DNA from: Anaspis maculata
Lineage: Eukaryota; Arthropoda; Insecta; Coleoptera; Scraptiidae
Direction of reading: 5' to 3'
Assembly: GCA_949128115.1 (NCBI GenBank)
Contig: OX421964.1
Span: 2,790,001 to 2,854,000, forward strand
DNA length: 64,000 bases
The notes below the pieces were generated by a model. It was given only the letters and a program-made list of their open reading frames with translations, was not told where the DNA came from and made no database searches. The position numbers were made by a program, and so were the translations under genes. Positions 2,054 through 62,929 of this stretch are shown here, piece by piece (position 1 is the stretch's first letter; each line of letters opens with the position of its first letter).

Positions 2054-5051
2054 TCAACTGGCGACTTCGTACGGTTCAAATTCCATCTCGTCCATCGCCT
2101 GTTTCTTCTTGTCGATCTTGCGAAAATCGTACTTTATCGACTTGTCGCTGTAGCTGATCCCGTTGAACGTCTTCGTCTTGTTCACGTCGCCCCACTGCGT
2201 CATCTTCCGCTCCTCGCCGATTATCTTCGGCTTCGGCTGCATGTTCTTTATGTTCTCGTTCACGACGTGCTTGCCGTTCTTCTCGCTCGTCGGTTCCTCC
2301 TTTACGTTCCTCAAATTGTTCTGGTGCTGTCGCATTTTGTTGTACTTTTGCTTCGCCTCCTGCAAGTTGTTCGTTCCGACCAGCTGCAGCCGGCTGTTGC
2401 ACGAGTTCGACTTGACCAGCTTGAACTTGACGCCCTGGTAGTTGGCCTTGTTGTTGTCTTCGCAGGTGCAGTCGCGCTTTTCGTTATCCGCGATTTCTTC
2501 CATGATCACTTTGGTCAGGCCGAGCTGGTTGTGCTGTTTCTTCACCACCTGACCGCCGTAGTAGGTGACCGTGCTGCCGCAATCGCGTATCTTCTTCAGT
2601 ATGTCTTCCGAAACGTATTCGCAGCAGTAGTCTTCGGTATCGTACAAGTTTTCTTGGGAATCAAAATCTGAAACGTGACTCGAGTTTGAGTCGTCAGTGG
2701 CCGAACAGTGGTCTTTGTCTGGGTCAGTTTTTTGCGGCGTCATGATCCCTTTTTCAACTCCGTTGAACTCCTGCGAGCTCTGGCTGCGACGTGTCAGACC
2801 GCATTCGAAAAATTGCCGTACTTGCTTCACGGTATCCGGATTGGGCAGCTCGTCGTCGTTTACTTCTTTGTTCACGCGTATCGGATGGTAGAAAAAGTGG
2901 CGTCGCAACGAGCTGTCGTCGTCCGGTTTTATATCGCGATGTACCATCGGCGTGATGTTTTTGGCATTCTTAGCTATGCTCGAAGCTTCATGCGGTATCT
3001 TGGAACGTATCGGTTCGATGATCACGATATTGTTGTCGATCAACAGCTCCTGGAAGCTGTAATCTTGCAGGTATTGCATCAACCCGTCGAATTGGCTTTC
3101 CTTCTCGCAGTTTGCAAAGATCTTCTTTTGGAACAGATCCGATTTGACTACTCTGTACCGGACGTGGTCGAATTCCGGCTCGGTGCTGTTCGCTTTCGTT
3201 ATTGCTTTATGCTCTTTGCTTTTCGCTTCTTTTCTTTTGGTGCTTGCACCGTTTTTGCTTTGCTTCACTTTCGTTGTTGTCGTTGATTTCGAGCTTTGCA
3301 CTTGCTGTTGCGCTTGTTCTTTGGTAATGATTTCAACCACGCTGGGGCTCAAGCTTTCGAATTGGTTGCTTTGTTCGAAATAGCTGCAGCTTTCTTTGAT
3401 AAACGCTGAAGTTTTCTCGCGTTTATCGGCTTTAGCCGGCGGTTCAAACAGCTGCTTGGCCATTTGAACCTTGCTCGGTTTCTCAGGTTCTTTGTTCTCA
3501 TCAGGCGGTTCGAACTTTTTCTTCACGTCTTCGACTTTAGTTTGCACATCCACGATTTTGCACTTTGGCGAAGCTTCGTCCATCGCTTCGCCGGTCATTT
3601 TACCCCAGTAGTTTTTCATTGCGCCCAGCTTCTCTTGGTATTCTTCAGGAAGCTCCATCACTTCCACTTTATCAAAACCGCCGCCTGTGACTTGAACCTC
3701 CAGGTTGTTATTCAAATCTTGATTGTCTTTCTTCTTCTTGCTACCAGCTCGGTTTTTCTTGACTTTGGCGATTTTGACTTCGAAATCCACCGGAACGTTA
3801 TTGGCTGCTATGTCAAAATGCTTGCCTATGTTCACTATAAACCGGTTCTCAGTGCTCGTTTCTTTCAAATTAGTTATCTTCTCGCACTTTCGCAGTTTCC
3901 GATCAATCTTCTCGCACTTCTTCAAGCTCTTGCTGATGCTTATATCAGGAAGCGAATGGAATTGATTCTCAACCAAATTAGTTTCTTTCGAATTCTTGCG
4001 CGATATATTCGAAAGCTTCTTGGTAATAAAATTCTGTAGCGGAGTTTTGGAGCCTTTTTGCGTCTCCAAGATGTCTCTCAAATAGTTATGACTGTGCTGT
4101 TTATCTGTGCTGTTATCGTCCGAATCACCGGATACCGTAACGATTGTTTTGAACTCGTCGCTTTGTTCTTGCTCGACTTCAATCGTTGTTTTAATCGGTT
4201 CTTTGACCACCGTATCCAAGCTTTCGTTGCTCTCACTCCCTTCGATTATTTCCAAACACACCGGGCTGTCTTTTTGCAATTCATCAGTTTCAACTTGAGA
4301 CTTGGTGGCGTTATTCAGGTTGATCTCGTCGAAATTGCTGTCCGTTTCGAAGTAATCCAAGCTGATCTTGTCTTCGTCCTCTTTGATCTCTTTCTCTTCG
4401 GAAGAATCGGAAGAATAGCTCCGCTTGTCTTTGTTGAAGTAGATGTTGCGTTCTCTGTTGTTGTACGGCGTCGGTCCTCGGATCGTCCTCGGCTTGGCGT
4501 AGTGGTTTTCGCGTAGCGAATTGTACAGAGGCCTGTTGGTGCTCAGCACTATGTTTTCGTCGTAGGATATGCTTTCGGATTCGGTAACCGTCCACTTGCT
4601 GGTCGATATGTTGTCGCAAGACGAGTACTTCTTCGTGCTGAAGTTGAACGAGTCGCTCAGCGACACGTTGTCTGTGTTATCGGTGCTGTCGTACTTCGAA
4701 TCCGGATAGTAGTTGGGCAAGCTGAGACCAGGTAAGTCGTCGCAAGAAACCGGATTGTTTCTGGAGGCGTGCTGTTGAACGTCGCCGATGATAAACTTTG
4801 GCAAGTATTGCTGGAGGTTTCCCAGCGATGAATAAGGCTGGTGTTGGAGCGGCCTGTGGCTTCGCGAGGGTTTGTGGTAGGGCTGTTGTTGGGGGTGGTG
4901 CTGGGGTGGCGGTGGTGAGTAGTCGAGAGGCGGTGTGTTGCTGTTGTTGGATTTTCGCTTGATTACGGCACGGTGGTGGTTGTGCGGTTCGATGTGCTGC
5001 TGCTGCTGCTGCTGCTGCAAGTTTTCCACGCTGGAGCCTCGCAGGATTTGT
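2054..5051 (-). CDS. Terminal coding exon of a large disordered, low-complexity protein
   Basis: An open frame of 998 codons ends with TGA at 2056-2054. It does not start here: the first ATG-like position is a GTG, and the frame continues upstream to a clear acceptor (TTTTCTTTCAG, exon starts at 5051) in phase 2. I do not recognise the protein. Residues are numbered from that GTG codon (5029). The sequence shows a Gln run (about 5-12), a Pro/His/Gln-rich stretch (about 35-55), an acidic Ser/Glu patch (about 208-222) and Lys-rich, NLS-like clusters near 425-437 and 598-612. More ordered-looking blocks lie at about 615-685 (YRVVKSDLFQKKIF...) and in the last 150 residues, with Cys and Tyr. A short motif V-x-x-[VA]-[KR]-[KQ]-x-F-E occurs three times (near 505, 523 and 738). 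There is no membrane segment or signal peptide. It may be a scaffold or cytoskeletal adaptor, but that is a guess. Confidence 0.9.
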
Positions 5052-8778: not shown

Positions 8779-8943
8779 GCAAATTTATTGTAGTAATCCA
8801 AATTTACATCAAAATGGAAAAAAACAAAAATTTTTGGAACGACGTATTGATTTGTGCGTAGTTCATTTGGAAATTCCCAGAAATTCTGAACGAATTTTAA
8901 GAAATCCTTAGATTTCCGGTAGAAATCTTCAGAAATTCCTATA

Positions 8944-14480: not shown

Positions 14481-14514
14481 TAGTTCTGTACCGATTATAC
14501 AATGATTTGATATC

Positions 14515-16002: not shown

Positions 16003-16083
16003 CCCTTCAATTGGCTCGTTCGGAGAGAACGTTCGCTCGAACCTTGAATCGCTTATCTTCAAAAACTGGCTCGACAGATTCAG
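16003..16083 (+). CDS. Candidate 81-nt internal exon, + strand
   Basis: A strong acceptor (TATTAAC branch-like sequence, then CTTTTTGTTTTTTTTATTGTTACAG) precedes 16003. The donor after 16083 is CAG|GTTTGT. In the frame beginning at the second base it is fully open: PSIGSFGENVRSNLESLIF, then KNWLDRF and a split codon. Both ends are in phase 2, so it is a symmetric cassette-type exon. Base composition is richer in GC than the flanks. I cannot assign a protein. It lies inside the intron of the gene on the - strand, so the two genes would be interleaved antisense. A chance match is possible at this length. Confidence 0.45.
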
Positions 16084-16682: not shown

Positions 16683-17340
16683 GGATTTCCGAGGATTTCT
16701 AGAATTTGCTATGGGATTTCCAGAGATTTCTACGAGAGTCCTAAGGTTTCGAAGATTTCTGAAGATTACCAATAATTTTCAAGGATCCCTTAATTTTACT
16801 AAAGTTTCCGGAGATGACGACAAAGCTTCTACGAGATATTCAAGGATTTCTGAGAATTTCGAAGCAGTTCTAAAGAATCTGCGGAATATCTAGAAATTTT
16901 TAAGGAATTTCTAGATATTTCTACGACATTTCTCAAAAACTTTTAGTGATTATTAGGATTTATACGGGATATCTAGGAATCTTCAACGATTCGTACGGGA
17001 TTTTGAAAATATTTAACGATTTCTAAGAATTTCAATAAATTTTTGGAAACTTCTACGGGCTTTCCCGAAATTCCCAAAATAGTCTAGGAGCTTTTCTAGG
17101 AATTTTTGAATAATGTTGAGGATTCCCAAAAACTCATGAATCATGAAGATTTGTTATACTTTCTAGGGATTCTTGAAGATTCTCACCAGATTTTTGACGA
17201 CTTTTCAGAGATTTCTGAAGATTTCTACAGGATTACCAAAGATATTCACGAAATTTCTGAGAACTCCTGTTAGAATTTCTAGGAATCTCTGATGTACATT
17301 TCTACAGCCATAGTTGTAAAACTCAAAGGCAATAAAGTTA

Positions 17341-17374
<34 letters not shown>

Positions 17375-18530: not shown

Positions 18531-19027
18531 ATCTATGATAATAATAATAATCTTTATTAATGTTTTTACACACATAAGTATGTTTACACACGTCAAATTG
18601 TAGGTACATATAAGTATAAGATAAAATATTATTCAAAACTAGAAACATATTAACAAACATCATTACAAACAAACCAAGCAAACGAAAAACAAGATCACTG
18701 TCGTGGGGTGAAGCTACATGTCATGAATTCATTTATTGAATAAAATGCACCGTCGATGAGGTACTCTCTTATAATTTTTTTAAACGTTTGACGTTCTAGT
18801 GTTCTGACTGTGGATGGAATAGAATTAAAGAACTTCACTCCATAATAGCTGACACCATCGCGGGTTTTGCTCAACCTCAAAAATTTTAGGTGGATGTCTT
18901 CCCTGTTCCTGATCTCGTAGCGGTGGGTCTCACCCCTGGACACGCTACTCTCGAGTTGATGGTCCCTCACGTAGAGCAAGCATTCCAAGATATACATAGA
19001 CGGTAATGTCAATAGTTTGCTTGTCAT
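18531..19027 (-). mobile_element. 5'-truncated LINE 3' end with an (ATT)n tail
   Basis: The - strand frame 19027-18695 encodes a typical insect LINE C-terminus: LTLPSMYILECLLYVRDH, then RLSKTRDGVSYYGVKFFNSI and a terminal YLID-x-AFYSINEF. It ends with a tail of ATT repeats (18535-18550 on the + strand). Unit 2 of family A lacks it: the corresponding phrase TGGTACTAAAGATT runs on uninterrupted at 24125. Confidence 0.85.
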
Positions 19028-19340
19028 TTCTAGTGTTTTTAAGATTTCTACGGTAGTTTAAACAAATCTCAGAGGATTTTTGAAACTTCTTTTACTCATT
19101 ACCATTTACTTTAGGAATTTCTGAAGGATTCTACAAGATTCGTGGGAATTTCCAAAGGTTCTTATGGAATAACTGGGATTCTTATGGAATTTCTGAAGAT
19201 TCTTTGTGGGATTCTTAAGAATTTATAGGGAGCTATCAAAATTTCTATAAAATATTTATCATATTTATTTTCGTCCGTGATTTTACGGTAAGTGTAAAAA
19301 ATTAATCACCTAATTCAAAATGTAGGATTTTTGGAAATAT
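19028..19340 (-). repeat. Family A repeat, end of reverse unit 1
   Basis: Matches 24140-24200 and 24660-24880, including AAGGATTCTACAAGATTCGTG and AGGGAGCTATCAAAATTTC. It breaks off at the LINE 3' end. Confidence 0.85.
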
Positions 19341-22300: not shown

Positions 22301-22530
22301 ATCGCTTGAAGAGGAAGACTGTGAAGTGACATTCACGGACTTATGAATTTCTTCTTGGATCACTTTTGACGGGCCAGCTTCATCTCCGTCCTTCTTACTG
22401 ATAATCCATGATGAAATCTTCTTATTGGATTGACCACTATTGGGATATTTAGGTGGTAAATAATCGTCATCAGAGGAATCATCGAAAGACACTGACATGA
22501 TGATCTGACGTTATTTGTTGAGTAAATAAA
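19341..22530 (-). mobile_element. Nearly complete LINE with restriction-like endonuclease (R2-superfamily type)
   Basis: About 3.2 kb, inserted at the junction between two family A units. It reads 5' to 3' on the - strand from about 22530. The 5' UTR is only about 30 bp. The domains in order are a C2H2 zinc finger, reverse transcriptase, a Cys/His cluster and a PD-type endonuclease. It ends with a 3' UTR of about 70 bp and AATAAA at 19353-19348 (-). A sister unit of family A (24.84-24.92 kb) shows the empty site. Confidence 0.85.
19417..22498 (-). pseudogene. Broken polyprotein of the RLE-type LINE: zinc finger, RT, endonuclease
   Basis: The frame starts at ATG 22498. The first piece (22498-22160) carries a C2H2 finger, C-x2-C-x17-H-x4-H (CPYCPEDLSYKKYKENRGLK then IHCSRIH). 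The second (22286-21159) and third (21207-19975) pieces hold RT: IKIDLKNAFNCV (motif A), GAQQGDPLGPLIFSL (motif B), VWYLDDGTLGG (motif C) and FSLLGAPI. The fourth (19962-19417) has HGLSC, then DDGKSPDGLTLTPW and SLVWDATCVDTLA, a PD...D pattern of the restriction-like endonuclease seen in R2-related LINEs. It is inactivated by at least two frameshifts (22.16-22.29 kb and 21.16-21.21 kb) and one in-frame stop near 19973. The clade (R2, NeSL, Hero or other) is uncertain. Confidence 0.87.
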
Positions 22531-24206
22531 TTTATGATTAAGGATTCCTAGGGGTTTCTAAGAAATTTGTGTTAATTCTCAAAAATTCTCAGAGATTTCT
22601 CGAGGTTTCTAAGGAAATTCGAGAAATTTTCGAAGATGTTTGAAAGTTTCTTCATGATTTCTAGGGAACCATGAAAATTTCTAGAAAAAAAAATTCTAAA
22701 CATTTGTATGGGATATCAAGGAATTTCTTGATATTTTATGAGATTTTTGGAAAACTTTAAGAGATCTGGAGATTTCTGAAATCTACAGAAATTAAAAGGT
22801 TTTTCAAGATTTCTACGGAAATTTGAGGGATATCTCAGGGTCTCTGCGAGATTACTTTCAATACTCCTTGAAGATTTGTGGGGATTTTTGAAGATTTTTA
22901 CGAGACTTCTAAGGACTTGCAAGATTGTTTAGTGATTTTTACGAGATTTCTGAGAATTCCTGTTAGAATCTCTAGGAATCTCTGTACATTTCTACAAGAT
23001 CTCTACGGATTCCTGAATATTCGCTTTGGAGTTATAGAGATTTCAGAATTTTTCTACGGAATCTGTAAGGATTTTTGAAGATTTTTACAAGATTTTGACT
23101 AATTCCCAAAGATTTTTACGGGGCTACTAGGTTTTTTTTGAGGATTTCTGAAAACGTGCAGGGAGTTCTGAGATTGGAAATGTGTATGTATTTTTCTATT
23201 GTGTTCACGTTCTCTACGGTCAGAATGAGGATTTTCAATGAATTGCTATGGTTTTCAAGATTCCTGGATGGAATATGGAATTTTCAAATACTTCTAGAGA
23301 TTTCTAGAAATTTCTATTTCTACGAAGTTTCCAAGGATTTCAGGAAATTGAGGGGAGTTTCAAAAATTTCTGCAAGATTCTTCGGGAGTTCTGAAGATTT
23401 TCGCGGTTTATTACACATTTCTGAATATTTCTTCAAGATTTTTGAGGGCTTCTAGAGATTTCTACGAGATAACTGAGGATTTTCTTCCAGTTTCCGACCT
23501 TCTTTTCCAACTGAGCCTATTTTCAAGAATTTAGGAATTTTTGCCGAAAACCTTCAGAATATTTCTAGGGATTTTCGAAGATTTCTCAGGTATCCTTTAG
23601 AATTCACGATGATCGTATGAGATTCCTTAAATTGCTCAGTATTTTTGAAAATCTCTATTGATTTTCACAGATCTCTACGGAATTTCCCGGGATCTCCAAG
23701 ATATTTCTGCAAGATTTTGAAGGGATTTCTTGAGATTCTCGAGGACGCCCAAAAATTTCCATGAGTTTCTGAAGATTTTTACGGGATTTCTAGGAATTTA
23801 TGATCATTTGTGTGAAATTGTATGGGTTTCTGAAGAACTCTACCAGATTTTTGAGGAATTTCTAGACATTTCTAAAGATTTCTTCATAATTCACAAAGAT
23901 GTTTACAAGATTTTTTAGGATTCCTGTGAAAATTTCCAGGGATTTCCAAAGATTTCTACGGGAAATCTAAGGATTCCTGAAAAACGTTTTGAAATTTCAG
24001 GGATCTTGGATTATTTCAACGGAATTTCCAAGGATTTCTAGAGATTTTTACAAGATTTTCGAGGTTTTCTAAAGATAATCACGGGGCTCCCAGCGATTTC
24101 CAAGGAGAACTTCTCTGCAATTCTGGTACTAAAGATTTTCAAGATTTTTACGGTATTTTAAACAAATCTCAGATGATTTTTGAGACTTTTTTCACTTATT
24201 ACTATT
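22531..24206 (-). repeat. Family A repeat, reverse orientation, unit 2
   Basis: Starts with phrases also found at the start of unit 3 (24900): CATTTGTATGGGATATCAAGG at 22702 and 25039, and AGGGTCTCTGCGAGATTACTT at 22837 and 25178. The distance of about 2.34 kb between these phrases defines the unit. Divergence between units is visible in every line. Confidence 0.87.
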
Positions 24207-24659
24207 CACATAGATAGATAGATAGATAATGTTTATTCATATACCATTACTGGTGTCGAATACATAACAATTAGGTATATAGGTAACATACAAGAATAAT
24301 AGAAAACAATAACAATTATACATTAATAAAATGTCATAAAATGATAACAGAAAATGTAATTGTATAAAAGTTTACTTATTCCCACTTTGAAGTGTCATTA
24401 ATATATTCCTCCATTGAATAATATACTTTTGATTTTAACATTGTTTTTAAATTTTGATTGAAAAATTTTGAGTTGAGATTTCTGATATCGATTGGAATTT
24501 TGTTATATAATACTATTGATTGATGTACAAAAGATCTTAGAAAAATGTCATTCTTTGGGATTTCCCCCCTAATTTCGTTATTTTTTCTAGTTTGATGATT
24601 ATGGAGAGAAGTTCCTACACTAAATTCCCCTTTATGTTTATGCATGTAACTAAAATCCC
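24207..24659 (-). mobile_element. 5'-truncated LINE 3' end with an (ATCT)n tail
   Basis: A - strand frame ending at 24376 encodes LINE-like C-terminal residues (SFVHQSIVLYNKIPIDIRNL and YSMEEYINDTSKWE), followed by an AT-rich 3' UTR and a run of ATCT (24211-24228 on the + strand as ATAGATAG...). Unit 1 of family A lacks this insertion at the corresponding place (about 19100). The family differs from that of the insertion at 18.53 kb. Confidence 0.82.
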
Positions 24660-25708
24660 ATAAGGAATTTCTGAAGGATTCTACAAGATTCGTGTGAATT
24701 TCCAAAGGTTCTTATGGAATATCCTGGGATTTCTGATGATTCTTCATGGGATTTTTGAGATTTTATAGGGAGCTATCAAAATTTCTATAAAATATTTATA
24801 ATATTTATTTATTTTCCCCTGTGATTTTACGGTAAGTGTGAATAATTATTCACTTAATTCAAAATATTGGATTTTTGGAAATTGGATTTCTAGGGATTTT
24901 TAAGAATATTGTATTTATTCTCAAGAATTCCTAGAGATTTCTCAAGATTCCCAAGAAAATTCGGGAACTTTTTGAAGATCTTTGAAAGTTTCTTAATGAT
25001 TTCCAGGGATCCATGAAAATTTCTAGAGAAGAAGGTCTGAACATTTGTATGGGATATCAAGGAATTTCTTGATATTTCACAAGATTTTCGGAAAACTTCA
25101 AAAGATCTGGAGATTTCTGGAATTTACAGAAATTCAAAGGTTTCTCAAGATTTCTACGGAAATTCTAGGGACTTCTCAGGGTCTCTGCGAGATTACTTTC
25201 ATTACTCCTTGAAATATTCTGGGGATTTTTAAAGATTTCTTCGAAATTTCTAAGGATTTTCAAGAATTTTTAGTGATTTCTACGAGATTTTTGAGAATTT
25301 GGGTAAAAATTTCCAGGTGTTGTGGAAAATTCCCCCGAGATCCTGAAAATTCGTATGGGATTTTTAAAAATGTCTGACAGTTTCTATGGATTTTTGGAAA
25401 TTTCTACGGGATTTCCGAGGGTTTTCAAAAGATTTCGTAGGTCATTTCTCAAGACTTTTGTGGAACATCCGGGAATTTTTGAAGATTTGTATGAGATTCC
25501 CAACTTTGGAAAATTGTGAGATTTTTGAATAATTTTTATGGGTTTTTAAAGATTTCTGAGGAATTTCTCAAACTATTTAAATATTTCCGAGGACTTCTGT
25601 GAGAATTTCTTATTTCGAGTGATCCATAATTCCGACGCTATGAGCTTTCGAGATCGAAAAATATGATTGTTAGCAAAAAAAATCACATAATACCTACGAG
25701 TGGCAGTT
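24660..25708 (-). repeat. Family A repeat, reverse orientation, unit 3 with array terminus
   Basis: Continues unit 2 and starts a third, partial unit. It ends with a non-repetitive terminus at about 25605-25708 (GAGTGATCCATAATTCCGAC ... AATACCTACGAGTGGCAGTT). The same terminus in opposite orientation opens the array at 63776. Confidence 0.85.
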
Positions 25709-25923
25709 GGGAATTGGGAATTACGCCGGAACTGAAGGCAAGAAACTGATATACTACGTTCAGCCTTGATGTGAGCCTTGAACAATTCTACTGCGAGCTT
25801 TGATTTTCGGAATTTCCCATTTCCAAATGCTTGGCGTGAGGCGAGACCCCCGGCCAATCAGAATCACAACAGGGTTGACCGCACTACACTAGATACCATG
25901 TACAGTAATATTATTATTCTGAC

Positions 25924-26376
25924 CTCTGTTCGCGACTGAGGGTGCTGCGATCGATGAGCTTGGCCCTGGGTATCAGCTGCGACCTCCTCTTGTTGCTGCC
26001 ACCTTGACCTTGACCGACGGCGTGCTGCGTTGCCGTCGAACCGGCGGCGGGGCTCAGATCCGCAGACGACGCGAAGACGTCCTGTCGACTGATGGCCAGG
26101 CTCCTGCTCCTCCTCAGGCTCGACTGCTGCTGCTCAAAGTGCAAATCTCCCCAGGGATTGCTCGAGACGTTTTCCAGGCTGCCCCGTTTGAATTTTTCCG
26201 ACGGCTCCCGCGTCCTCCTCGAACTCCTCGTGTACGTGGAGTTGTCGATGACGATGGGCTTTCTTTGGCCGGTGCCGCTTCGGCTTCCTTCTCCTCTTAT
26301 TCCTGCCTGTTGGTGGAGGTGATGGTGGTCTTTGAGGGTCAACTTGACGTTGTTGATGCACGATTCCCGTTCTAAC
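25924..26376 (-). CDS. Internal coding exon of the - strand gene, basic Ser/Arg-rich
   Basis: The acceptor TTTTTCTATTCCAG ends at 26377 and the exon starts at 26376. The donor ACAGAG|GTCAGA follows 25924. It is 453 nt (151 codons' worth), phase 2 at both ends, and fully open. It encodes LERESCINNVKLTLKDHHHL, then a basic Ser/Arg-rich stretch with RRTREPSEKFKRGSLENVSS and SSLRRSRSLAISRQ, and ends TLSREQ. The RRSRSLAIS region resembles targets of basophilic kinases. It joins in frame to the terminal exon at 5051. There is no ATG at the start, so an upstream exon is required. The phrase RGS-(L/S)-x-EN occurs here and again just after the splice (RGSSVENLQ). Confidence 0.85.
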
Positions 26377-30900: not shown

Positions 30901-31026
30901 GGTTTGCAGTGTATTGTGACTTAAAAATTAATCGCAATTTTTCGTTGTTTCAGGTAAGCATGGATTTCTTCTGTCTGCAAAGGTATTATGCAGTCATGCC
31001 TACCCCTTCCGTACTGTTTTGTATGG
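30901..31026 (+). promoter_or_regulatory. Candidate ratchet point (recursive splice site) with short downstream exon
   Basis: An acceptor (ATTAATCGCAATTTTTCGTTGTTTCAG, CAG at 30951-30953) is joined directly to a donor-like GTAAGC at 30954. A second strong donor, GTAAGT, lies at 31027, which would define a 73-nt exon 30954-31026. This arrangement is what recursive splice sites look like in long Drosophila introns. The same layout recurs at 61461. Confidence 0.45.
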
Positions 31027-38958: not shown

Positions 38959-41900
38959 CGACACCAATAGGAAGCAGAATCTTTCTTCTCTATGGAGTGT
39001 CCGTTCACCTCGTGTTTCTTTTTGTTTCTTCTGTAATTTTTGAATGTTCCGTCAAATCAAAGGACGCTACATTATCTATTTGGAAAATTATAATTTGCCA
39101 AAAGTCTGTAATTTTTGAATTTCGCGTCAAATCAAAGAAGGCTACATTCTCTGTTTGGAAAATTATAATTTGCCAAAAAGGCAGAAATATGCAAATGAAA
39201 TTGACACCAATAGGAAGCAGAGTCTTCCTTCTCTATGAAGTGTCCGATCACTTCGTGTTTCTTTTTGTTTCTCGTCTGTAATTTTTGAATTCCGCGTCAA
39301 ATCAGAGGACGCTACATTCTTTATTTAGAAAATCATGATTTGCCAAAAAGGCAGAAATATGCAAATGAAATTGACGCCAATAGGAAGCAGAATCTTTCTT
39401 TTCTATGAAGTGTCCGATCACTTCGTGTTTCTTTTTGTTTCTCGTCTGTAATTTTTGAATTCCGCGTCAATTCAAAGTACGCTACATTCTTTATTTGGAA
39501 AATTATAATTTGCCAAAAAGGCAGAAATATGCAAGCAAAATTGACACCAATAGGGAGCAGAATCTTCCTTCTTCAGGGAATGTCCGATCACCTTGTGCTT
39601 CTTTTTGTTTCTCGTCTGTAATCTTTCATTTTCCCGTCAAATCAATGGACGTTACATTCTCTATTTGAAAAATTATAATTGGCCGAAAAGGCAGAAATAT
39701 GCGAGGAAAATTGACGTCAATAGGAAGCAAAACCTTTCTTTTCTATGAAGTGTCCGATCATTTCGTGTTTCTTTTTGTTTCTCGTCTGTAATTTTCGAAT
39801 TTTGCGTCAAATCAAAGTAGGCTACATTCTCTATTTAGAAAATTATAATTTGCCAAAAAGGCAGAAATATGCAAATGAAATTGACGCCAATAGGAAGCAG
39901 AATCTTTCTTCTCTATGAAGTGTCCGATCACTTCGTGTTTCTTTTTGTTTCTCGTCTGTTATTCTCGAATTTCGCGTCAAATCAAAGTAGGCTACATTCT
40001 CTATTTGAAAAATTATAATTTGCCAAAAAGGCAGAAATATGCAAATGACATTGACGCCAATAGGAAGCAAAATCTTTCTTCTCTATTATGTGTCCGATTA
40101 CTTCGTGTTTCTTTTTGTTTCTCGTCTGTAATTTTCGAATTTCGCGTCAAATCAAAGTACGCTACTTTCTCTATTTGGAAATATTTAATTTGCCAAAAAG
40201 GCAGAAATATGCAAATGAAATTGACGCCAATAGGAAGCAAAATCTTTCTTCTCTATTAAGTGTCCGATCACTTCGTGTTTCTTTCTGTTTCTCGTCTGTA
40301 ATTTTCGAATTTCGCGTCAAATCAAAGTACGCTACTTTCTCCATTTGGAAAATTTTAATTTGCCAAAAAAGCAGAAATATGCAAATGAAATTGACGCCAA
40401 TAGGAAGCAGAATCTTTCTTCTCTATGAAGTGTCCGATCACTTCGTGTTTCTTTCTGTTTCTCGTCTGTAATTTTCGAATTTCGCGTCAAATCAAAGTAC
40501 GCTACTTTCTCTATTTGGAAAATTATAATTTGCCAAAAAGGCAAAAATATGCAAATGAAATTGACGCCAATAGGAAGCAGAATCTTTCTTCTCTATTAAG
40601 TGTCCGATCACTTCGTGTTTCTTTCTGTTTCTCGTCTGTAATTTTCGAATTTTGCGTCAAATCAAAGTACGCTACTTTCTCTATTTGGAAAATTATAATT
40701 TGCAAAAAAGGCAGAAATTTGCAAATAAAATTGACGCCAATAGGAAGCAGAATCTTTCGTCTCTATGAAGTGTCTGATCACTTCGTGTTTCTTTTTGTTT
40801 CTCGTCTGTATATTTCGAATTTCGCGTCAAATCAAAGTACGCTACATTCTCTATTTGGAAAATTATAATTTGCCAAAAAGGCAGAAATATGCAAATGAAA
40901 TTGACGCCAATAGAAAGCAAAATCTTCCCTTTCTATGAATTGTCCGATCACTCCGTGTTTCTTTTTGTTTCTCGTCTGTAATTTTCGAATTTCGCGTCAA
41001 ATGAGAGTACGCTACATTCTCTATTTAGAAAATTATAATTTTCCAAAAAGGCAAAAATATGCAAATGAAATTAACGCCTATAGGAAGCAAAATCTTTCTT
41101 CGCTATGAGGTGTCCGATCACTTCGTGTTTCTTTTTGTTTCTCGTCTGTAATTTCCGAATTTCGCGTCAAATGAGAGTACGCTACATTCTCTATTTAGAA
41201 AATTAAATTTGCCAAAAAGGCAGGAATATGCAAAAAAAATTGACGCCAATAGGAAGCAGAATCTTTCTTCTCTATGAAGTGTCCGATCACTTCGTGTTTC
41301 TTTTTGTTTCTCGTCTGTAATTTTCGAATTTGGCGTCAAATTAAAGTACGCTACATTCTTTATTTGGAAAATTATAATTTGCCAAAAAGGCAGATATATG
41401 CAAATGAAATTAACGCCAATAGGAAGCAGAATCTTTCTTCTCTATGAGATGTCCGATCACTTCGTGTTTCTTTTTGTTTCTCGTCTGTAATTTTCGAGTT
41501 TCGCGTCAAATCAAAGTAGGCTACATCCTCTGTTTGGAAAATTATTATTTGCCAAAAAGGCAGAAACATGCAAATGAAATTGACGCCAATGGGAAGCAGA
41601 ATCTTTTTTCTCTATAAAGTGTCCGATCACTTCGTGTTTCTTTCTGTTTCTCGTCTGTAATTTTCGAATTTCGCGTCAAATCAAAGTACGCTACTTTCTC
41701 TATTTGGAAAATTTTAATTTGCCAAAAAAGCAGAAATATGCAAATGAAATTGACGCCAATAGGAAGCAGAATCTTTCTTCTCTATAAAGTGTCCGATCAC
41801 TTCGTGTTTCTTTTTGTTTCTCGTCTGTAGTTTTCGAATTTCGCGTCAAATGAGAGTACGCTACATTCTCTATTTGGAAAATTATAATTTGCCAAAAAGG

Positions 41901-43254
41901 CAGAAATATGCAAAAAAAATTGACGCCAATAGGAAGCAGAATCTTTCTTCTCTATGGAGGGTCCGATCACTTTGTGTTTCTTTTGGTTTCTCGTCTGTAA
42001 TTTTTGAGTTTCGCGTCAAATTAAAGTACGCTATTATCTTTATTTGGAAAATTATAATTTGCCAAAAAGGCAAAAATATGCAAATGAAATTGACGCCAAT
42101 AGGAAGCAGAATCTTTCTTCTCTATGAAGTGTCCGATCACTTCGTGCTTCTTTTTGTTTCTCGTCTGTAATTTTCGAATTTCGCGTCAAATGAGAGTACG
42201 CTACATTCTCTATTTGGAAAATTATAATTTGCCAAGAAGGCAGAAATATGCAAAAAAAATTGACGCCAATAGGAAGCAGAATCTTTCTTCTCTATGGAGG
42301 GTCCTATCACTTTGTGTTCCTTTTGGTTTCTCGTCTGTAATTTTTGAGTTTCGCGTCAAATTAAGTACGCTACATTCTTTATTTGGAAAATTATAATTTG
42401 CCAAAAAGATAGAAATATGCAAGAAAAATTGACGCCAATAGGAAGCAGAATCCCTCTTCTCTATAAAGTGTCCGATCACTTCGTGTATTTTTTTGTTTCC
42501 CGTCTGTAATTTTCGAATTTCGCGTAAAATCAAAGAACTCTACATTCTCTGTTTGGAAAATTAAAATTTGCCAAAAAGGCAGAAATATGCTAGAAAAATT
42601 AACGCCAATAGGAAGCAGAATCTTCCTTCTCTATGAAGTGTCCGATCACTTCGTGTTTCTTTTCGTTTCTCGTCTGTAATTTTTGAATTTCGCGTCAAAT
42701 CAAAGAACGCTGTATTCTCTATTTTGAAAATAATAATTTGCCAAAAAAGCGGAAATATGAAAATGAAATTGACGTCAATAGGAAGCAGAATCTTTCTTCT
42801 CTATGAAGTGTCCAATCACTTCGTGTTTCTTCTGGTTTCTCGTCTGTAATTTTCGAATTTCGCGTCAAATCAAAGTACGCTACATTCTCTATTTGGAAAA
42901 TTATAATTTGCCAAAAAGGCAGAAATATGCAAATGAAATTGACGCCAATAGGAAGCAGAATCTTTCTTCTCTATGAAGTGTCCGATCACTTCGTGTTTAT
43001 TTTTGTTTCTCGACTGTAATTTTCGAATTTCGCGTCAAATCAAAGTAGGCTACATTCTCTATTTGGAAAATTATAATTTGCCAATAAGGCAGAAATATGC
43101 AAATGAAATTGACACCAATAGAAAGCAGAATCGTTCTTTTCTATGGCGTGTCCGATCACCTCGTGTTTCTTTTTGTTTCTCGTCAGTAATTTTCGAATTT
43201 CGTGTCAAATCAAAAAACGCTACATTCTTTATTTGAAAATTGTAATTCGCCAAA
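38959..43254. repeat. 170-bp satellite, about 25 copies
   Basis: TGCCAAAAAGGCAG recurs at a 170-bp step (40021, 40191, 40361, 40531 and onwards). The consensus unit runs GACGCCAATAGGAAGCAGAATC ... GTCCGATCACTTCGTGTTTC ... CGTCAAATCAAAGTACGCTAC. Fifteen of the monomers carry a perfect ATGCAAAT. A local higher-order dimer of about 341 bp is visible at 41.85-42.36 kb (variants ATGAGAGTACGC and ATGGAGGGTCC alternate). Open frames spanning several monomers arise because 170 is not a multiple of 3 and each monomer lacks stops in two frames; they are not genes. Confidence 0.97.
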
Positions 43255-49989: not shown

Positions 49990-50612
49990 CTGATGTTGGT
50001 TTGTTGGTTATTTTTGTTCTTACTACTTGTGCGAAAATGGAAGAAAAAATGGATCTCGACACCAAGTTGATCCAACTCGGTTGCTTCGTTTCACCAGTTC
50101 TGTCCAACATCGCCCCTCCTGAGATCCGTAGAAAACTTTTCACAAAAAAAGAATGGTTCAAATGCCACCACAATCATCAATTGCCAGTCCACCCGGACTG
50201 CACAAGACGAACGAGACTAAAAGAAAGCCAACGTGGAGTCTGACAAACGAGCTCTTGGAACAAAACTTCGACACAGAAACGGCCTGGATGAACGAATGGT
50301 CAAGAACAAATCGAGACAGACTGAATCTGATCGAAGACCCGAATAAATGCAACCTGCAGGATTCAAACTAGACAGGCATTTGTGGTGTAAACTGAACCAA
50401 ATCAAAACCTGCCATGGGAGGTGGGGGTTTTCAAGCATAAATGGGGACTTTCGGAAGAACCAGGATGTGACTGCGGACACCCAATCCAAACTATGGACCT
50501 TATCGTGTTAGATTGCCTCATTAGACGTTTTACGGAAACAAAATGGAAACACACCAAGCCTGTGAGGACGCAACTGACTGGATAGCGGCACTTGATGTTG
50601 AAATTTGATACT
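49990..50612 (+). pseudogene. LINE ORF2 C-terminal fragment
   Basis: The frame from ATG 50038 (MEEKMDLDTKLIQLGCFVSP) is continued in another frame (TWSLTNELLEQNFDTET, RLNLIEDPNKCNLQDS) and then a third (KLNQIKTCHGR ... CDCGHPIQTMDLIVLDCLIRRF), ending ATDWIAALDVEI and a stop at about 50610. The CxCGxxxQTxxH-like block with LxCxxRR and the terminal Trp-Ile motif are typical of LINE C-termini in arthropods. It has at least two frameshifts. It is followed by a pyrimidine-rich 3' end and an AT palindrome. Confidence 0.75.
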
Positions 50613-50660
50613 TTTTTCTTCTTTTATTTGCTGTATACCATTCTTGCTTTTGAACTCTAC

Positions 50661-50755
50661 GAAATATATATATATGCCTATATAGGCTATATATATATAG
50701 CCTATATATATGGCCTATATATATATAGCCTATGGTATATATATACCAGTTTATG
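50661..50755. repeat. AT-rich palindromic microsatellite
   Basis: Alternating TATATA blocks with GCCTATATAGGC-like palindromes. It may be the tail of the preceding LINE or a simple-repeat expansion. Confidence 0.8.
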
Positions 50756-51900
50756 GCACACCATGGTTTGAAATAAATTACGGAATGCCTTTTTTCAGTT
50801 CGTTCCGTAAATATTGGCCGGACGCTCCAGCGCCTCTTCCTTTGTGGTCTCTTCTTGTTTTGTTCTTCAGCTGCTGCACTGGCGGTACCGGCAGCTATAA
50901 TGAGTAACATGGCGGAATCGCAAATGGCAAAATCTTCGGTATCGGTATCGGCCACACCAGCTTTGAATTGAAAATGATAATCGGAACAACAAAGTTGTAT
51001 ATATGTTCACTTGATGACCAACAGAGGGCGCCAGGGGAACATCCGATCGCTCCTCATATCACAACCAATGTATAATTGTGATGTTTGAGTTTGATTTCAT
51101 ACGGTGCACGGCTGCATGCCGATGCCTCCATCATTTAGGGTCGAGAACAATAGAACAAAGGAACATTTTTACCCTAAATTTTTAGAAAGTCCCTATCGCC
51201 GAATTGGGGACGCTCAAGAAATTGAAGAATTAAATTGAAGAATCCACACAGCCGCATAGCAAAAAAAATTGAATAAATTTGAAATTAAACCCGCAAGAAC
51301 ATCAAGAAATGTTTGATGCGTTTGCGTTCAGTACTGATTACCAGGCATGAAAGACAGCTTGTGATTTTGAGAAACAGTGTTCGCGTTGCCGAAAAAACTA
51401 AATTTGTGCGTTCGTTACAACACTAACAGGGGGCGCCACGTAAAAATCCAGCTGCCACTTGAACCTCGACCTGGTGAGCTGTGTAATGTTTCCAGCTCAA
51501 TCTCAATATCTCTCGGGCGGCACGGAGGCCTGCAGAGTTGCAAGTTCGCTGGGGCTCTAGTAGAGGGCGCCACAGAAACATCCGACCTCTCTTCAGATTT
51601 CAGCTTGTTTATAGATGTAATGATTCAGTTCGCTTCCTCATGGTGCATGGCCATACCTATGTGCACCAACAAAGTGAGATATTTCTCGACCTCAAAATTT
51701 TCATGAAAATTCCCACCATTACACGATTGTTGATTGTTCATTCTCATTCATCCTTATTGCGAGCATCTTGTCACTGTCACTCATCTTGTAATCTTTATCT
51801 GGTGTTCTTTTATAGGTTATTTTCGGCATGATCAACCAGCAATCATAACGTAGTCGGAATAGGGGCGCTGAGAAAATAAGGATTAAACCCGCATCAGAGA

Positions 51901-54710: not shown

Positions 54711-55190
54711 TCTCGAAGGCTGACTCGCAGCATGAGAAGGCCACACTATGTATCAAGTTTGAAACCGTTCAAAATTAACCGGGTTAAGACACCATGTTTT
54801 GTTCTGAATTTATTTTCTGACTTATTAGTACTTGAAAATTATGAGGAAGTTTTTTGCGAGCCTGGTGATGAGACAGCGTCGAAATACGAGCAGATAGAAG
54901 GTCTCAAATCTAATATAAGAACCGAAGTGGGAGAGCTGAAGATCGTTAGGACAGATAGAGCAACAATCAAGCATCCCCCTGGCAAAAAAAGAGAGAAATC
55001 GGGTGAGAAATTGAAAGAATAAATTCCAAACCTGAAACCAAGGAAATTTTCTAGAGAGAACCAACGCATTTATAAACAAGACCGACAGCGACATCTAACG
55101 CCAAAATAAGCCAAAGAGGTGATGGCAGCCAGAGAAATAAAAGGGGATATAAAGGTTATGGAAAGAAGCATTAAATGAAACAACGATGAA

Positions 55191-55682
55191 ATGAGAAATT
55201 TAGGGAAAGAAATAAAAACCATGAGAGAAAACTGGAATGAAGAGAAGGAAGAAATGATGAAACAAATAAGGAACGCAAATGAGAGGATCGAAAAGATAGG
55301 AAAGGATAAAATACGCAACAACCTAGTGGTAACAGCCATAGGAAGGAATATGGACAACGAGGATCTCTTGACACAGACAATGGAGCGCATGATAGAGAAA
55401 GAACTGAATATAGAAATGAGAATCAAAGGAGCCTATAAAATAGGAGAAGGGAGAAGTATTGTGGAAATGGAGAAATGGACCTACAAGCTAAGAATTCTGA
55501 AAGCAAAAAGCAAGCTAAGAGGAATCGAAGTATTCATAGACTCCGTCATGACAGCCAAGGAAAGGGGAATTCAAAAGATCATCAGGGACTTAGCCAGAGC
55601 AGAAAAAGCCAAGGGAGCAAGCGTGAAAGTCAAATACCAAAAAATTGAAATCAATAATAAGACCGCGAAAGAGCACAAATGA
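55191..55682 (+). pseudogene. LINE ORF1 protein (coiled-coil type)
   Basis: 163 codons open: MRNLGKEIKTMRENWNEEKE is highly charged and coil-forming, then VTAIGRNMDN, GAYKIGEGRSIVEME, KSKLRGIEVFIDSVMTAKER and RAEKAKGASVKVKYQK. It resembles LINE ORF1 proteins (coiled coil, then an RRM-like RNA-binding domain). This is the longest intact piece of the element. The stop is at 55680. Confidence 0.75.
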
Positions 55683-55844
55683 CAGATGTACGGGAAGCCC
55701 CACACTGTTCCAAAAAAAGAAAGCGCGGGCACAACTATCAAGTATATAAAAATCGAAGAACACAATACGAAAGAAGTAACGACCCAGGCAATGAAAATGA
55801 CAGAAGAAAAAATAGTGGAAGATTCAGTAAGCGTCAAAGTAGAG

Positions 55845-58800
55845 AAAATTAAAGTTTTATTTTGGAATGTTTTTAGTTTATCAATGAAAGAGGATTGTTT
55901 TTGGGAACATAAAATGATTTGACGTGGTAGGACTGATGGGGACATGGGTGGAGGAGAAGAATTGAGAAAGGACGGAGAAAGCCTTGCCATGCGAGTATCG
56001 ATGAAAATGCCAATTCCATCGATCCTCCCAGCAAAGGGAGGAATAATTACAGGAGTGAGAAGAGAAATAGAGGAAAAAGTAAAACAAAACACAAGCACAA
56101 ACAATGTAATGGAAAGAACAGTGTATTTCAGCCAAAACAAATGGAAAATGATAACAGTTTACAGCACAAGTATCAAGAAACTGAAAGATCTGGAACGGGT
56201 AACAAAGAAAACTGAGGATGAACGGATATTAGTCGGCGGAGATTTCAATGCCAGGATAGGGGAAAGGGAAAGAGGTATGAAGAACTGGAGTAGGACAGGA
56301 ACAGACCAGCGAAAGATAAAGTAGAAAACAAAGAGGGGAGACTCCTACTTGAATATATAGAAGAAAAGGGATGGGAAATACTGAACGGAAATGAAATGGG
56401 AGACAAGGAGGGAGAATACACATATGTCACAGGAAAGGTGGCAACAACAATAGAATTCGCAATGGCGAACGAAATAGCACTAGAAAAAGTACTTACGTTC
56501 AAGATTGAAGGAAGAATGGAGGCAGACCACCTACCATTGGAAATAGAAATCGAACGGGAGGAAGAAATGGAGAGAGTCGGAAAAGAGAGAAATTGGAAGG
56601 GAATAGAAAAGTGCTGCTGGAAGGTGGAAGAAATTTTACGATACAGAAGCAGAAGAAACGAGATTGAGTGGAAGGCGGAAACAGTACAAGAAAAAATGGA
56701 AGAACTAAGCAAAATCATAATTAAGGCAGTAGAACGGAAAACGATAGTCATGCAAAAGAAAAAAAACGAGTAGTGGGACGTGGAATGTACAAAAAGGGAA
56801 AAAGAAGCACGAGAACGACTGAGAGAGTGGAGAAAAAATACAGAAACGAGAGATCACACCGAAGCAAGAAAGAAATACCGGGACTACTGTAAAAGAAGAA
56901 AATTGGAGAGAAGGGAAGATGAAGAAATGAGAATAAGAAAAATAAAACACGAACACGAAATATGGGCATACATCAATAGAGAAAGGAGAAATAGAAAGAA
57001 AGTCAGCAACAAAATAAAAATTGAAGAGTGGAAGGATTACTTCATGGAACTACTTGGAGGAACGGGTGAAAGAGACACAGCAGAGATAACAAAAGACAAG
57101 AAAACGGGACACTCGACTCTGGAGAAAGAAGAAATTATGAAACAAATTGAGAAGCTCAAGAAAAGAAAAACTCCATGTGAAGACGGAATCGAAAATGAAG
57201 CGTGAATATATGGCACAGAAGAAATACTAGAAACACTGAACGAAATACTGAATGAAATATGGCTAAACGAAATACGAATGAAATATGGAAAGGAGGAGGG
57301 TTTCCAGAACAATGGAGGGAAGTCATTATCTGCCCCATCTACAAGAAGAGAGGAAAGGAGGAGGTGACCAACTACAGGGGAATAACGCTGCTGAACACCC
57401 GCTTACAAGATATATGCAATGGTGATAGAAGAAAGACGGACAAAAGAGATAGAGGAAAAGAATATACTACCGGATGGACAAGCCGGCTTTCGAAAAGGAA
57501 GAGGCACCGCGGACAACATTATACATCCTCCACCATCTCATTGAAAAAGAAATAAACAAGAAAGCAGGACGGGTGTATGCGCTGTTCGTAGACTTGAAGG
57601 CAGCCTTTTTGATAGCATAGAAAGAGAGGAATCATGGAAGAACTTGAAAGAAAGAGGGATAAACGAAAAACTAGTAAACTAAATGAAAAATGTATACAAA
57701 GAGACAAGAAACAAAGTAAGAATTGATGGGAAAGAGAGTTATTGTTTTTACGCAAAAAAAGGGTGTGAGACAGGGATGCCCCATGAGCCCCACAGTATTC
57801 GCAGCATACTTGGGAGATATAGACGAAATGTTCCGGTAAGCGCAGGCGGGAGGACTTGTGGTGGGAAACGAGAAAGTATGGACACTGGCGTATGCGGATG
57901 ACTTGGTGGTGCTAGCTGAAGCTGAAAGAAATATGAGAGGAATGATAAAAACTTGGAAAGGTATTTGAGAAGGAAAAAGTTGGAAGTGAATATGAAGAAA
58001 ACAAAACTAATGATTTTTTGAACGGGAAACAGAAGGCAAAAAAGAAGTAGAATGGAAATGGCAAGAGAGATTCAAGATCGAAGAAGTGAACGAGTTCCGA
58101 TACCTCGGATATGTTTTCAACAGAGCTAACACCTCAGGAACCCATGTGAAAGAAATGATAAAGAAGGCGAATAAAATTCTAGAAAGCACGTGGGGAATAG
58201 GAGAAAGAAAATCCGAACATGACATAGGAAGAAGAATGATGATGTTCGACAGTTTGGTGGGCAGCACAGGAGCTGAAATGTGGGGATGAAAAGAGCACGA
58301 AGAGATGGAAAGAGTACAGGAGAGATATCTAAAATGGCTACTAGGATTGAACAGAGGAACACCGGGATATAATATATCACTCACTATATTATAGTGAGAG
58401 AAGAAACAAAGAGATGGAAGATAAGATTTGAAACAGGAAGAAAAGCGGTCAAGTACGAAGAAAAAATGGAAGACAGAAAACTGCAAAATTTTACAAGAAT
58501 GCTGGACAGAGAAACTGAAGGATGCAGAAAAAGGGACACTGAAAGGCAGATAGAATTTCTATAGAAGAAGCGGTTACTCGAGCGAAGAGGTCAGAAGAAT
58601 AAGAGAGAGTGGAGGACGGATGGCAGAGGAACTGAGAATGAGAAGTAGAGATGTGGAAAGCCAGGAAAGGAGAGAACGAATAAGAAATTCAAGATATAAT
58701 GAATTATACGAAAATCTGATAACAGTAGTGAAACCAAAATACTTGAAGAGAGAAAACATGAAGGAAAGAAACATGATAGCGAGATTCAGATGCAGAAATG

Positions 58801-59005
58801 AGGAGAGAGATAATAAATACTGGATGGAGGAGGAAGAAAGAACATGCAGAATGTGTGGAAATGGAAGCGAGACAATGGAGAACATGTTGAAGGAATGCAC
58901 AGAAATGCGAGAAAGTGATGGAGGAATCATGAAGACACTGAAAGAAGACGGAAGAGGGTTGAAATGGATGAAGGAGGTCATAAGGACAAGAAAAAAAAGA
59001 GTTTA
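55845..59005 (+). pseudogene. LINE ORF2: APE endonuclease and reverse transcriptase, many breaks
   Basis: KIKVLFWNVFSLSMK (EN block 1), GGDFNARIG at about 56240 and ADHLPLEIEI at 56525 mark the APE endonuclease. Then [13 protein letters not shown] and [16 protein letters not shown] (motif A, about 57595), GVRQGCPMSP (motif B, about 57770) and LAYADDLVVLAEA (motif C, 57890) mark RT, and FRYLGYVF follows at 58095. The end CRMCGNGSETMENMLKEC (58845) lacks the usual His of this zinc-like cluster (Asn instead). At least six frameshifts or stops lie in it, so it is inactive. The short open pieces are remnants, not genes. Confidence 0.88.
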
Positions 59006-59115
59006 ATTTTATTTCTGTAAATATGTAATGAGTAACTAATAGCTTAATTTATTGTGACAATGTGGGTCGAGAATTGTAAAACCGTATGGTTAATAAAGCT
59101 CACTACTACTTAAAA

Positions 59116-59797
59116 ATCATAACTGTAGCTTGTTATAACGTTTTCTGGTCACTTATGTGCCGAAATTGGATGAATCTAGAATGGTTCAACTAGTTACTCC
59201 AACTTTGGTTGGAATTTAGAAACTTATGATAGAAAAAATCGAATTCGAAAAAGTGACTACTTCAATTTTTTGAAGAGTGTATTCAAAAAATGCTTACAGT
59301 TGACAAATTGTGACAACCAAACCAATTGCACGACGCTAGTTTCGACAGATATTTTCAAATCCGCAGCACCCTTGACCAAGATTATATTATGATTTTTAAG
59401 GATTAAGGATTCTGAACAAAATTTCGTTCACGTTTTCCCCAGTTCTTAAATCTGCCTGCCGATAGATATCTACTGGTCACTTATTTTCGCCCTCGCCCCT
59501 TTTTCCCTTTTCGCGTCAGACTGGGCTTCCTAAATACTACCCTGGCACGTTCATGCTGCCTGCGAAACCTCATGGCGCAGAGCGCCTGGCTCTTTGAAAG
59601 AAAATCGAAATTATAAAGAACTCTTTGAGAAACCCTTCGGGACGTATTGAGTGAGATTTATGCCCTTGTTCCTTGCCTTGCCTTCTACCGGTGCGAATAT
59701 GCGTATACAAAGTAGTTCAAGAACGCGCCGCCGGTTTTGTCTTCTTGTTCATGCTCAAGTACCGGTAAATTCGTGCCAAAGTCGCGCATACACCTTA
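59116..59797. other. Unique sequence, no gene supported
   Basis: No ORF of note and no repeat. GC rises at 59480-59760. Confidence 0.5.
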
Positions 59798-61322
59798 TAG
59801 GCCAGGCGGTAGGTCATTCTGGATAGAAAAAATTCCGACCAAAGCTTTTATGGTGTCAAACTCTTCGTAAGGTCAGTAGGTATCTACCACTGAGTTTCCG
59901 CCCAAAAACGAGTTGTGCTGATTCCTCCACATCTGCCCAAAGGTAAAAGATGTCTTGAAGGTGCAAAAAGACCTATCAAACCCCCGTACTTTTTCATTTT
60001 ATTTACCTCAATGCAAACGTACAACTCTAACGCAAACATTGGAAGCATTTGTCATCATCTCTGTGCCAGTCTTACTGTTGAAAAAAAAGATCTCTTTGTG
60101 CGGGTCAGATAAATCACATTTAATTGTTTTTCCACACAAAAAAACGATGGAGCAACATGTATTTTGGATGTTTTCTAATAACTTGTACTTACTGAACCCA
60201 TTCATGGCGTTAAAATTTCAATAACAGCATTTTTGAAGATGTTGCCCGCTAAGAAGTGGATAATTTTTACCCGCCTGTTCAGCGGCAGTTTTTTCAATTT
60301 TGCCAAACACCGTTCTCGGAAATTTTATAGGGAATGACAAGCTGGAACTGTTTTCTAATGATATTATATCTGGCTTAACTGCGGCACGCTTTTTGAAAGT
60401 GTAGGAAACTGATTTCTTTCGAGCGGTTCTATTTTACCCGCGTGCGGCCATGCCTACTTGACATAGACCGGACTGATTACACAAGCTTGGAAATGTACTC
60501 TCTTCCAGCTTTGAATCACGACCATTAATGATAAAATAACGTATGATTTCTTCATGAATCAATGTACAAAGTCTCAATAATAATGGTCGCGTTTTAAAGA
60601 TGGAGAAGAGTACATTTCCAAGCTCGTGTAATCAGTCCGGTCTATGTCAAGTAGGCACGGCCGCACACGGGTGAAACAGGACCTCTCGAAAAGAAAACAG
60701 TTTTTTAGACTTTCAAGTGCGTGCCGCGGTTAAGCCAGGCACGATATCGTTGGAGGAGAGTTTGAGCTTTTCATTTCTTATAAAACTGCCGGAAACGGTG
60801 TTTGGTAAAATTGGAAAAATTGCTGCTGAACAGGCGGGTAAAAATTAGTAACTTTTTTGCTGGCAACATCTTCAAAAATGCTGTTATTGAAATTTTAGTG
60901 CCATAGATGGGCTCAGTGAGTACAAGTTATTAGAAAACATCCAAAATACATGTTGCGCCATCGTTTTCTTGTGTAAAAAAAACAATTAAATGTGATTTAT
61001 CTGATCCGCACAAAGAAATCTTTTTTTCAACAGTAAGACTGGCACAGAGATGATGACAGATGCTTTCAGTGGTTGCGTAAGAGTTGTATGTTTGCATTTA
61101 GGCAAATATAACAAAGAAGTAGGAAGGTTTAACAGGTCTTTTAGCACTTTCGAGGCATCCTTTACCTTCGCGCAGATGTGGAGGAATCAGCACAACTCGT
61201 TTTTGGGCGGAAACTCAGTGGTAGATAACTACTGACCTTACGAAGAGTTTGACATCATAAAAGCTTTGGTCGGAGTTTTTTCCAGATTGTAGTGATTTTA
61301 CCGACATACCGCCTGGCCTATT
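59798..61322. mobile_element. 1.5-kb foldback element
   Basis: TAGGCCAGGCGGTA at 59798 mirrors the right end TACCGCCTGGCCTA at 61322. The arms of about 735 bp pair with few mismatches over their whole length (for example ACAGCATTTTTGAAGATGTTG at 60222 and its mirror at 60867). The loop at about 60530-60600 is short. Flanks read ...TATA and TATT..., so a TA target is likely. No protein is encoded: the frames on the arms are mirror artefacts. Confidence 0.92.
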
Positions 61323-61399: not shown

Positions 61400-61520
61400 T
61401 ATGTAAATTATTGCGGTTATTTCACACTTACTTTCATGTTGTTTTTTTTTTTTTGTTGCAGGTAAGCTTGCCCGGCTTCTGCGAAAACTGAAAGGAAAAG
61501 TATAGACGAAAACGCATGCG
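61400..61520 (+). promoter_or_regulatory. Candidate ratchet point (recursive splice site) with short downstream exon
   Basis: A pyrimidine run of more than 25 bases ending in GTTGCAG (CAG at 61459-61461) is joined to GTAAGC at 61462. A further donor GTAAGG at 61521 would close a 59-nt exon. This is the same arrangement as at 30953, 30.5 kb upstream on the same strand. Confidence 0.5.
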
Positions 61521-62929
61521 GTAAGGTAAATTGACGTACGGAAAAGTCGTATATAGCTTTATCTTTTGTTTGTAATAATAATTATTTGCAATTAAGTGAG
61601 TGCTTGGTAATGATTCACCACGAAAGCCGCACACGCGGAAAATTGTACCTGTAGGTACATTTACGATAATATTATGTGGGACTGCGTCCTTGAAGAATTT
61701 CACTTTTTTCAATTATTGCATAACGTTTGCATCGACCAAAGACTAACGTAGCAATTAAATGCGTTAGTTTTCCGAGTTATTAAAGGGAAATTTGATCGAT
61801 TGCGGTTTATAGTGTAAGGTGTAGATTTCCTGTACTGAATATAAAGAAAGTAAATATGAATAGATGTGTACCTGAGTACTTGTTACACTTTCTTGGCTTA
61901 TGTGTGGCTGGCATAGTGGCGCCCGGTAGCGCTGATGTTATAGCGAAGGGGTGATTTGCATTTAAATTTAAAATTCTAAACGGCATGGCTGCAGGCGAGG
62001 GAGTACTGGAAATTATTATTATTATCATTAAAATGGTAATAATTTTATTTTTGATGAAAATTTGAATATGGCGTGAAACTAGCTGCGTGAAAGAGCATTT
62101 AATAGTGATGGAAATATAATTTTTTTATGCTGTGGCTACTACACTGAATCCTAATAAAGATTCAAATATTGATTTTTATTTATTATAAGGCAGTTAGACT
62201 TTGAAAGTATAGGGAATACGCTGCAAGAGAAAGGATAAAATTAACACGAGATTTCAGCTACTCGGGCCTTAGACGAAAAGCTGCAAGAATTCTTTTCCCA
62301 CGACCACTCATAAAAGTGACATTTTCTACATGCTCTTGACTGTTTATAAGTACCAAATATCAAACAAGTGTCATACTCTCGCTACTTGATTATCTGGACA
62401 TTTTTCAAATCTATTACCTGCGAAACTGACATTTTCCAGCTTTAATGCCAGGTCAGATGACCGGATCATACCTGACCCAACCTGACCTGACCTGACCTGA
62501 CCTGACCTGACCAATTAATGACATTCCAAACATTATAGAAAATATCATTTCCTACAACTTTGAACCTAAAAATTTTTTGTATCTGAAACGATCCTCAGCG
62601 TTTAAAAGAAAAGGAAAAATGACCGGTTTTGGGGTTTTTTTTTCATCACTTTTCGTTTTCAATACACATTGTACCCACTATTTCGAAGAAATTCTGATTT
62701 TACACAACAATAATATCAATTAAAAAAATTGATTTTGAACAAACGAAACAATTTCTTCAGCTACTTCAACTGCAACTAGGTTTAGACTTCTTTTAGTCTG
62801 AAATTTTAACAAAGGATTTGAATTCAGAGTTGGAATTTGGTCGGAAATGACAAGGGAACTTGTTGTGTCACCTATGGACAAGTAAAGAAAAACATGCACC
62901 TTGTCGCTTTTCGCTGTCTTACGGTTCAA
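61521..62929. other. Unique sequence with a (CTGAC)n tract
   Basis: No gene is supported. A run of about six CTGAC units lies at 62480-62512 with looser copies just before. Confidence 0.5.

Follow-up and report, generated by a model that had tools for sequence, protein, structure and literature searches.

A predicted ratchet point within a very long MCU intron of the beetle Anaspis maculata

Positions 61459-61526 of the stretch of DNA analysed here are predicted, with good confidence, to act as a ratchet point, or recursive splice site, in a giant + strand intron of MCU, the gene for the mitochondrial calcium uniporter. This stretch, called the window below, comprises 64,000 nucleotides (contig OX421964.1, positions 2,790,001-2,854,000) of the 757.8-Mb genome of Anaspis maculata, and its coordinates are extended beyond both ends. 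At this site, the spliceosome would define a 59-nt RS-exon by means of a strong 3' splice site and a GTAAGG donor, and the upstream MCU exon, or a preceding ratchet point, would be joined at 61461/61462. The joint would recreate a donor from GTAAGC, which would then be spliced on to the next ratchet point, at 146250, with the MCU exon at 228,050 as the last target and the RS-exon lost on the way. The order of these steps is modelled on Drosophila, for which PMC8605326 describes an RS-exon that is defined, joined to the upstream exon and then lost as the rebuilt donor is used; transcription through the region and use of the site are presumed. The wider picture is favoured with somewhat less assurance: MCU, a mitochondrial housekeeping gene, would be spread over >0.8 Mb, its giant intron would be removed stepwise (at -706, 30954, 61462 and 146250), and the gene javelin, antisense inside it, would be transcribed in the opposing direction, with two very long introns sharing DNA on opposite strands.

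All bit scores given here rest on approximate insect splice matrices. The earlier note, by a reader hunting for oddities, had singled out this site and described a T-rich tract, GTTGCAG|GTAAGC and, 59 nt further on, a GTAAGG donor; direct re-reading of the + strand confirms each of these elements and the spacing of exactly 59 nt (Table 1). Compared with the ratchet consensus (Y)nNCAG|GTAAGT, the site has one mismatch, a C at donor position +6, and its normalised score of 0.89-0.90 passes the 80% level. Five features of a ratchet point are found together here: 3' and 5' splice sites juxtaposed as AG|GT, a short RS-exon with a donor, an RS-exon that is out of frame, a position on the sense strand of a long intron (in an MCU model built from sequence, with its linker exon unplaced) and an excess over the complementary strand, in small numbers. 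The site is probably a member of the known ratchet-point class, and its host intron is probably real and much longer than the earlier note had guessed.

Table 1. Positions of the features discussed, in window coordinates (values below 1 or above 64,000 lie outside the window)
Feature	Position	Strand	Basis or remark
MCU start exon	about -575,859 (contig position 2,214,141)	+	Genome search; 576 kb left of window
Large 3' javelin coding exon	2054..4879	-	Homologues; 5' boundary approximate
javelin coding exon (ERESCINNVKL block), acceptor TTCCAG|GTTAGA	25923..26376	-	Homologues; exact ends deduced
Weaker dual site CAG|GTAAGC, junction 30953/30954	30951..30959	+	Matrix score
Putative RS-exon, 73 nt, then donor GTAAGT (9.6 bits)	30954..31026	+	Two frames open
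Palindromic element, 1.5 kb	59797..61321		Arms 85-96% complementary; ends 140 bp upstream of 61461/61462 junction
Branch-point-like CTTAC (YTNAY), putative function	61427..61431	+	Pattern match; A at 61430, 32 nt 5' of junction
T-rich tract including 13-T run 61442-61454	61433..61457	+	Acceptor 14.4 bits, top of 7304 AGs
Dual 3'/5' splice site CAG|GTAAGC, junction 61461/61462	61459..61467	+	Candidate ratchet point
Putative cryptic RS-exon, 59 nt	61462..61520	+	Not a multiple of 3; all three frames stopped
Donor GTAAGG of putative RS-exon, 9.0 bits	61521..61526	+	Matrix score
javelin upstream exon	146,493-146,639	-	Outside window; profile score 76 vs 60-74 among homologues
MCU exon	228,050-228,355	+	13 beetle MCU proteins
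MCU exon	233,114-233,254	+	13 beetle MCU proteins
MCU exon	260,488-260,703	+	Pfam MCU 2.2e-34; PDB MCU uniporter chains; 13 beetle MCU proteins

The + strand gene around the window is MCU, whose exons are found on both sides of the candidate sites. Its start exon (MAIPRVLCRVRLLI...INK|GTGAGT), the only genome match listed, encodes the peptide MAIPRVLCRVRLLINNDFSVISKYPALANSVSINK, is followed by a GTGAGT donor and lies 803.8 kb from the exon at 228,050. The acceptor of the latter ends in TTTTGTTGCAG, as those at 61462 and 146250 do. The phases at the two ends, 0 for the start exon and apparently another for that at 228,050, do not match, so a linker exon, encoding residues ~38-80, is expected between them. 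The 304 kb that consist of the window, 200 kb to its right and 40 kb to its left yielded no such exon (best score 24.9 vs 36.9-48.3); its absence there suggests that it probably sits further left, in the ~536 kb (contig positions 2,214,252-2,750,000) between the start exon and these 304 kb. If it does, the MCU intron over the window would measure at least 268 kb (from left of -40,000 to 228,050), and it would measure at most 803.8 kb. The two motifs in the window had earlier been taken to imply a + strand intron of more than 45 kb; the intron itself stands, with MCU exons on the + strand flanking both sites, but that figure is not derivable from motifs 30.5 kb apart (30954 and 61462). A three-frame Pfam scan of the + strand (5100-25100 and 26500-64000) found no host + strand exon; it returned a reverse transcriptase at 57.4-58.1 kb and, in tandem repeats, four families below curated cut-offs.

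Sister sites were sought on both strands of the same 304 kb, with a dual site defined as AG|GT having an acceptor of >=8 bits and a donor of >=7 bits. Five such sites lie on the + strand (-706, 30954, 61462, 146250 and 184811) and one on the - strand (111044). A donor of >=8.9 bits follows 30-100 nt on at the first four + strand sites (12.5 bits at +49 nt for -706, 9.6 at +73 for 30954, 9.0 at +59 for 61462 and 10.6 at +59 for 146250) and at no - strand site. Equal frequency of the motif on the other strand, which the earlier note had named as an observation that would count against it, is not what is seen (5 vs 1 dual sites, 4 vs 0 with a donor), and the scan of the flanking contig that it proposed adds -706, 146250 and 184811 on the + strand, together with the MCU exons. 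Among window AGs, 120 of 7288 (1.65%) have a donor of >=8.9 bits at 30-100 nt downstream, and at this background simple arithmetic gives a probability of ~4 in ten million for strong donors at four of five + strand dual sites.

The individual sites differ in strength and context. The sites at 61462 and 146250 have in common an exact 18-mer, TTTTTTGTTGCAGGTAAG, over the core; their other matches are only of chance length, so a single repeat copied twice does not account for them. At 30954 the score is 16.3 bits, about equal to that of the ordinary javelin acceptor at 26376 (16.2), and the normalised score of 0.73-0.77 fails the 80% level. An alternative view of 30954 takes 30910-30953 as a 44-nt exon, with its acceptor at 30910 and CAG|GTAAGC as an ordinary donor (11.7 bits). 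The fifth + strand dual site (184811, GACAG|GTGAGA), located between 146250 and the MCU exon at 228,050, has a downstream donor of just 2.1 bits. None of the four candidate ratchet donors has the T that the fly consensus places at +6; three read GTAAGC and one reads GTAAGA.

The RS-exons of the four sites (49, 73, 59 and 59 nt) would each shift the frame if retained, and those at 61462 and 146250 are stopped in all frames; for MCU to be made, therefore, they must be dropped. RS-exons in flies are ~50 nt long and generally out of frame, and the stronger of two competing donors tends to win (PMC8605326). An RS-exon donor GTAAGT beats the ratchet donor (GTAAGC or GTAAGA) at -706, 30954 and 146250, so inclusion would be predicted at these three; at 61462 the two are about equal (ratchet GTAAGC 7.9 bits, RS-exon GTAAGG 7.6 bits, the true value depending on the end of the upstream exon). 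Either beetle rules differ or some transcripts keep some RS-exons. Since the identical signals also define an exon, 61462-61520 could be read as an ordinary short exon of an MCU isoform or another + strand transcript, beginning with GTAAGC and included, perhaps as a poison exon, without recursion. This reading is helped by the exon donors, which are the stronger ones at three of the four sites, as a donor of that kind promotes inclusion in flies (PMC8605326), but the frame shifts at all four sites and the closed frames at two make it an unlikely account, as does the fact that all four exons start with GTAAG when a donor of >=10.5 bits follows only 9 of the 7304 window AGs.

Slightly less probable again is the explanation by chance, in which a splice-like sequence has arisen on a poly-T run and is unused. 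Counts of the simplest signals agree with it. The bare CAGGTAAG core occurs three times on the + strand and never on the - strand, against an expected total of 0.97, and three or more are reached in 7 of 100 shuffles, which is not significant. Ordinary acceptor-donor pairs in the window show no + strand excess (4 on +, 5 on -), and under stricter cut-offs there are none on either strand, 61462 and 30954 falling just under those cut-offs. In beetle introns >50 kb, moreover, the complement still carries 0.101 RP-like sites per 100 kb, vs 0.807 RP-sites on the sense strand (PMC2773006). The full signal behaves differently. The site at 61462 ranks first among the 322 AG|GT of the 64-kb window and among the 1741 of the 304 kb, its donor score being tied second in the window, and none of the sequences simulated at Markov orders 1, 3 and 5, 150 for each order, reached its score; the expected number of sites scoring like it is about 0.00013-0.00018 per strand of 64 kb. 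Shuffling within the window the labels of which AGs carry a donor of >=10.5 bits gives P=0.0012 for 61462 alone and P=0.0002 for 61462 jointly with 30954. The combination of signals at 61462, unlike the bare core, is significant. The strong donors downstream of most + strand dual sites and the location of 61462 between MCU exons, in sense orientation, likewise speak against chance.

The gene on the other strand is identified by a minus-strand 991-aa open reading frame with 61 homologues at up to 57% identity, several of which are named javelin; the minus-strand exon at about 25.9-26.4 kb is also matched by 27 of these 61. javelin lies inside MCU on the opposite strand, between the start exon and that at 228,050. 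A 120-kb intron interrupts it; on the javelin strand, the single dual site in this intron (111044) is not followed by a strong donor. An objection that the candidate sites are merely antisense to javelin is true as far as javelin goes, but MCU has been found as the sense gene, and the ratchet reading gained weight from that identification. The 141-aa minus-strand open reading frame at 50530-50955 (...QRKRR) was considered as the javelin upstream exon and rejected; it scores 27.0, vs 37.7-46.3 among homologues, and has neither a Pfam match nor a homologue, and the real exon lies at 146.5 kb. That a minus-strand exon over the same bases, such as a javelin 5' UTR exon, is the functional element and the + strand motif incidental is very improbable. 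The minus-strand acceptor at 61487 (11.7 bits) with a donor of 8.5 bits 56 nt on does fall inside the 120-kb javelin intron, but minus-strand pairs occur at three places in the window, which puts one here near chance level, and the dual site and its three sisters are left unexplained.

Repeats make up part of the surroundings. Elsewhere in the genome, the outer end of the palindrome upstream of the site recurs almost unchanged at least 39 more times, 40 of 1407 candidates having been scored. Tandem arrays occupy 1-1714 and 39104-43254, with units of 184 bp and 170 bp, the first ending ~340 bp past the javelin stop codon. Remains of non-LTR retrotransposons, with reverse transcriptase recognised by Pfam, are located at 6825-8029 and 19417-22286 on the minus strand and at 54800-59100 on the + strand. 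No Rfam family was found in the window.

For recursive splicing there is ample evidence in flies, and the beetle literature found consists of motif counts only (PMC2773006); a literature search found no report of a ratchet point in MCU. The prediction can be tested directly, as it specifies the gene, four positions and an antisense gene nested inside. If true, it would show how an insect handles an intron of several hundred kilobases in a gene that most cells need, and it would provide a natural example in which two long transcription units oppose each other.

The neighbourhood of the two genes has counterparts elsewhere. javelin neighbours MCU in Drosophila (PMC6506686), and by hand count the two are on contigs of equal listed size in 15 of 21 beetle species, with the other six differing; two of the 15 have consecutive locus numbers (Abscondita LT08373/LT08374 and Lamprigera LY13555/LY13556). 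In the beetle studied here, javelin is placed inside MCU on the opposite strand. The site itself belongs with the beetle RP-sites predicted in PMC2773006 in its motif class, sense-strand excess and beetle host; that survey counts motifs over annotated introns >50 kb, and its section 6 names neither MCU nor any individual site. There is also a close likeness to the Drosophila ratchet points with cryptic RS-exons (PMC8605326, PMC6110457), which share the AG|GT juxtaposition, the T-rich tract, the short out-of-frame exon with a donor and the occurrence of several sense-strand sites in one very long intron. The beetle candidates are unlike those of Drosophila in that their ratchet donors are GTAAGC or GTAAGA and not GTAAGT, that the RS-exon donor is the stronger at three of the four sites, and that they are predictions from sequence.
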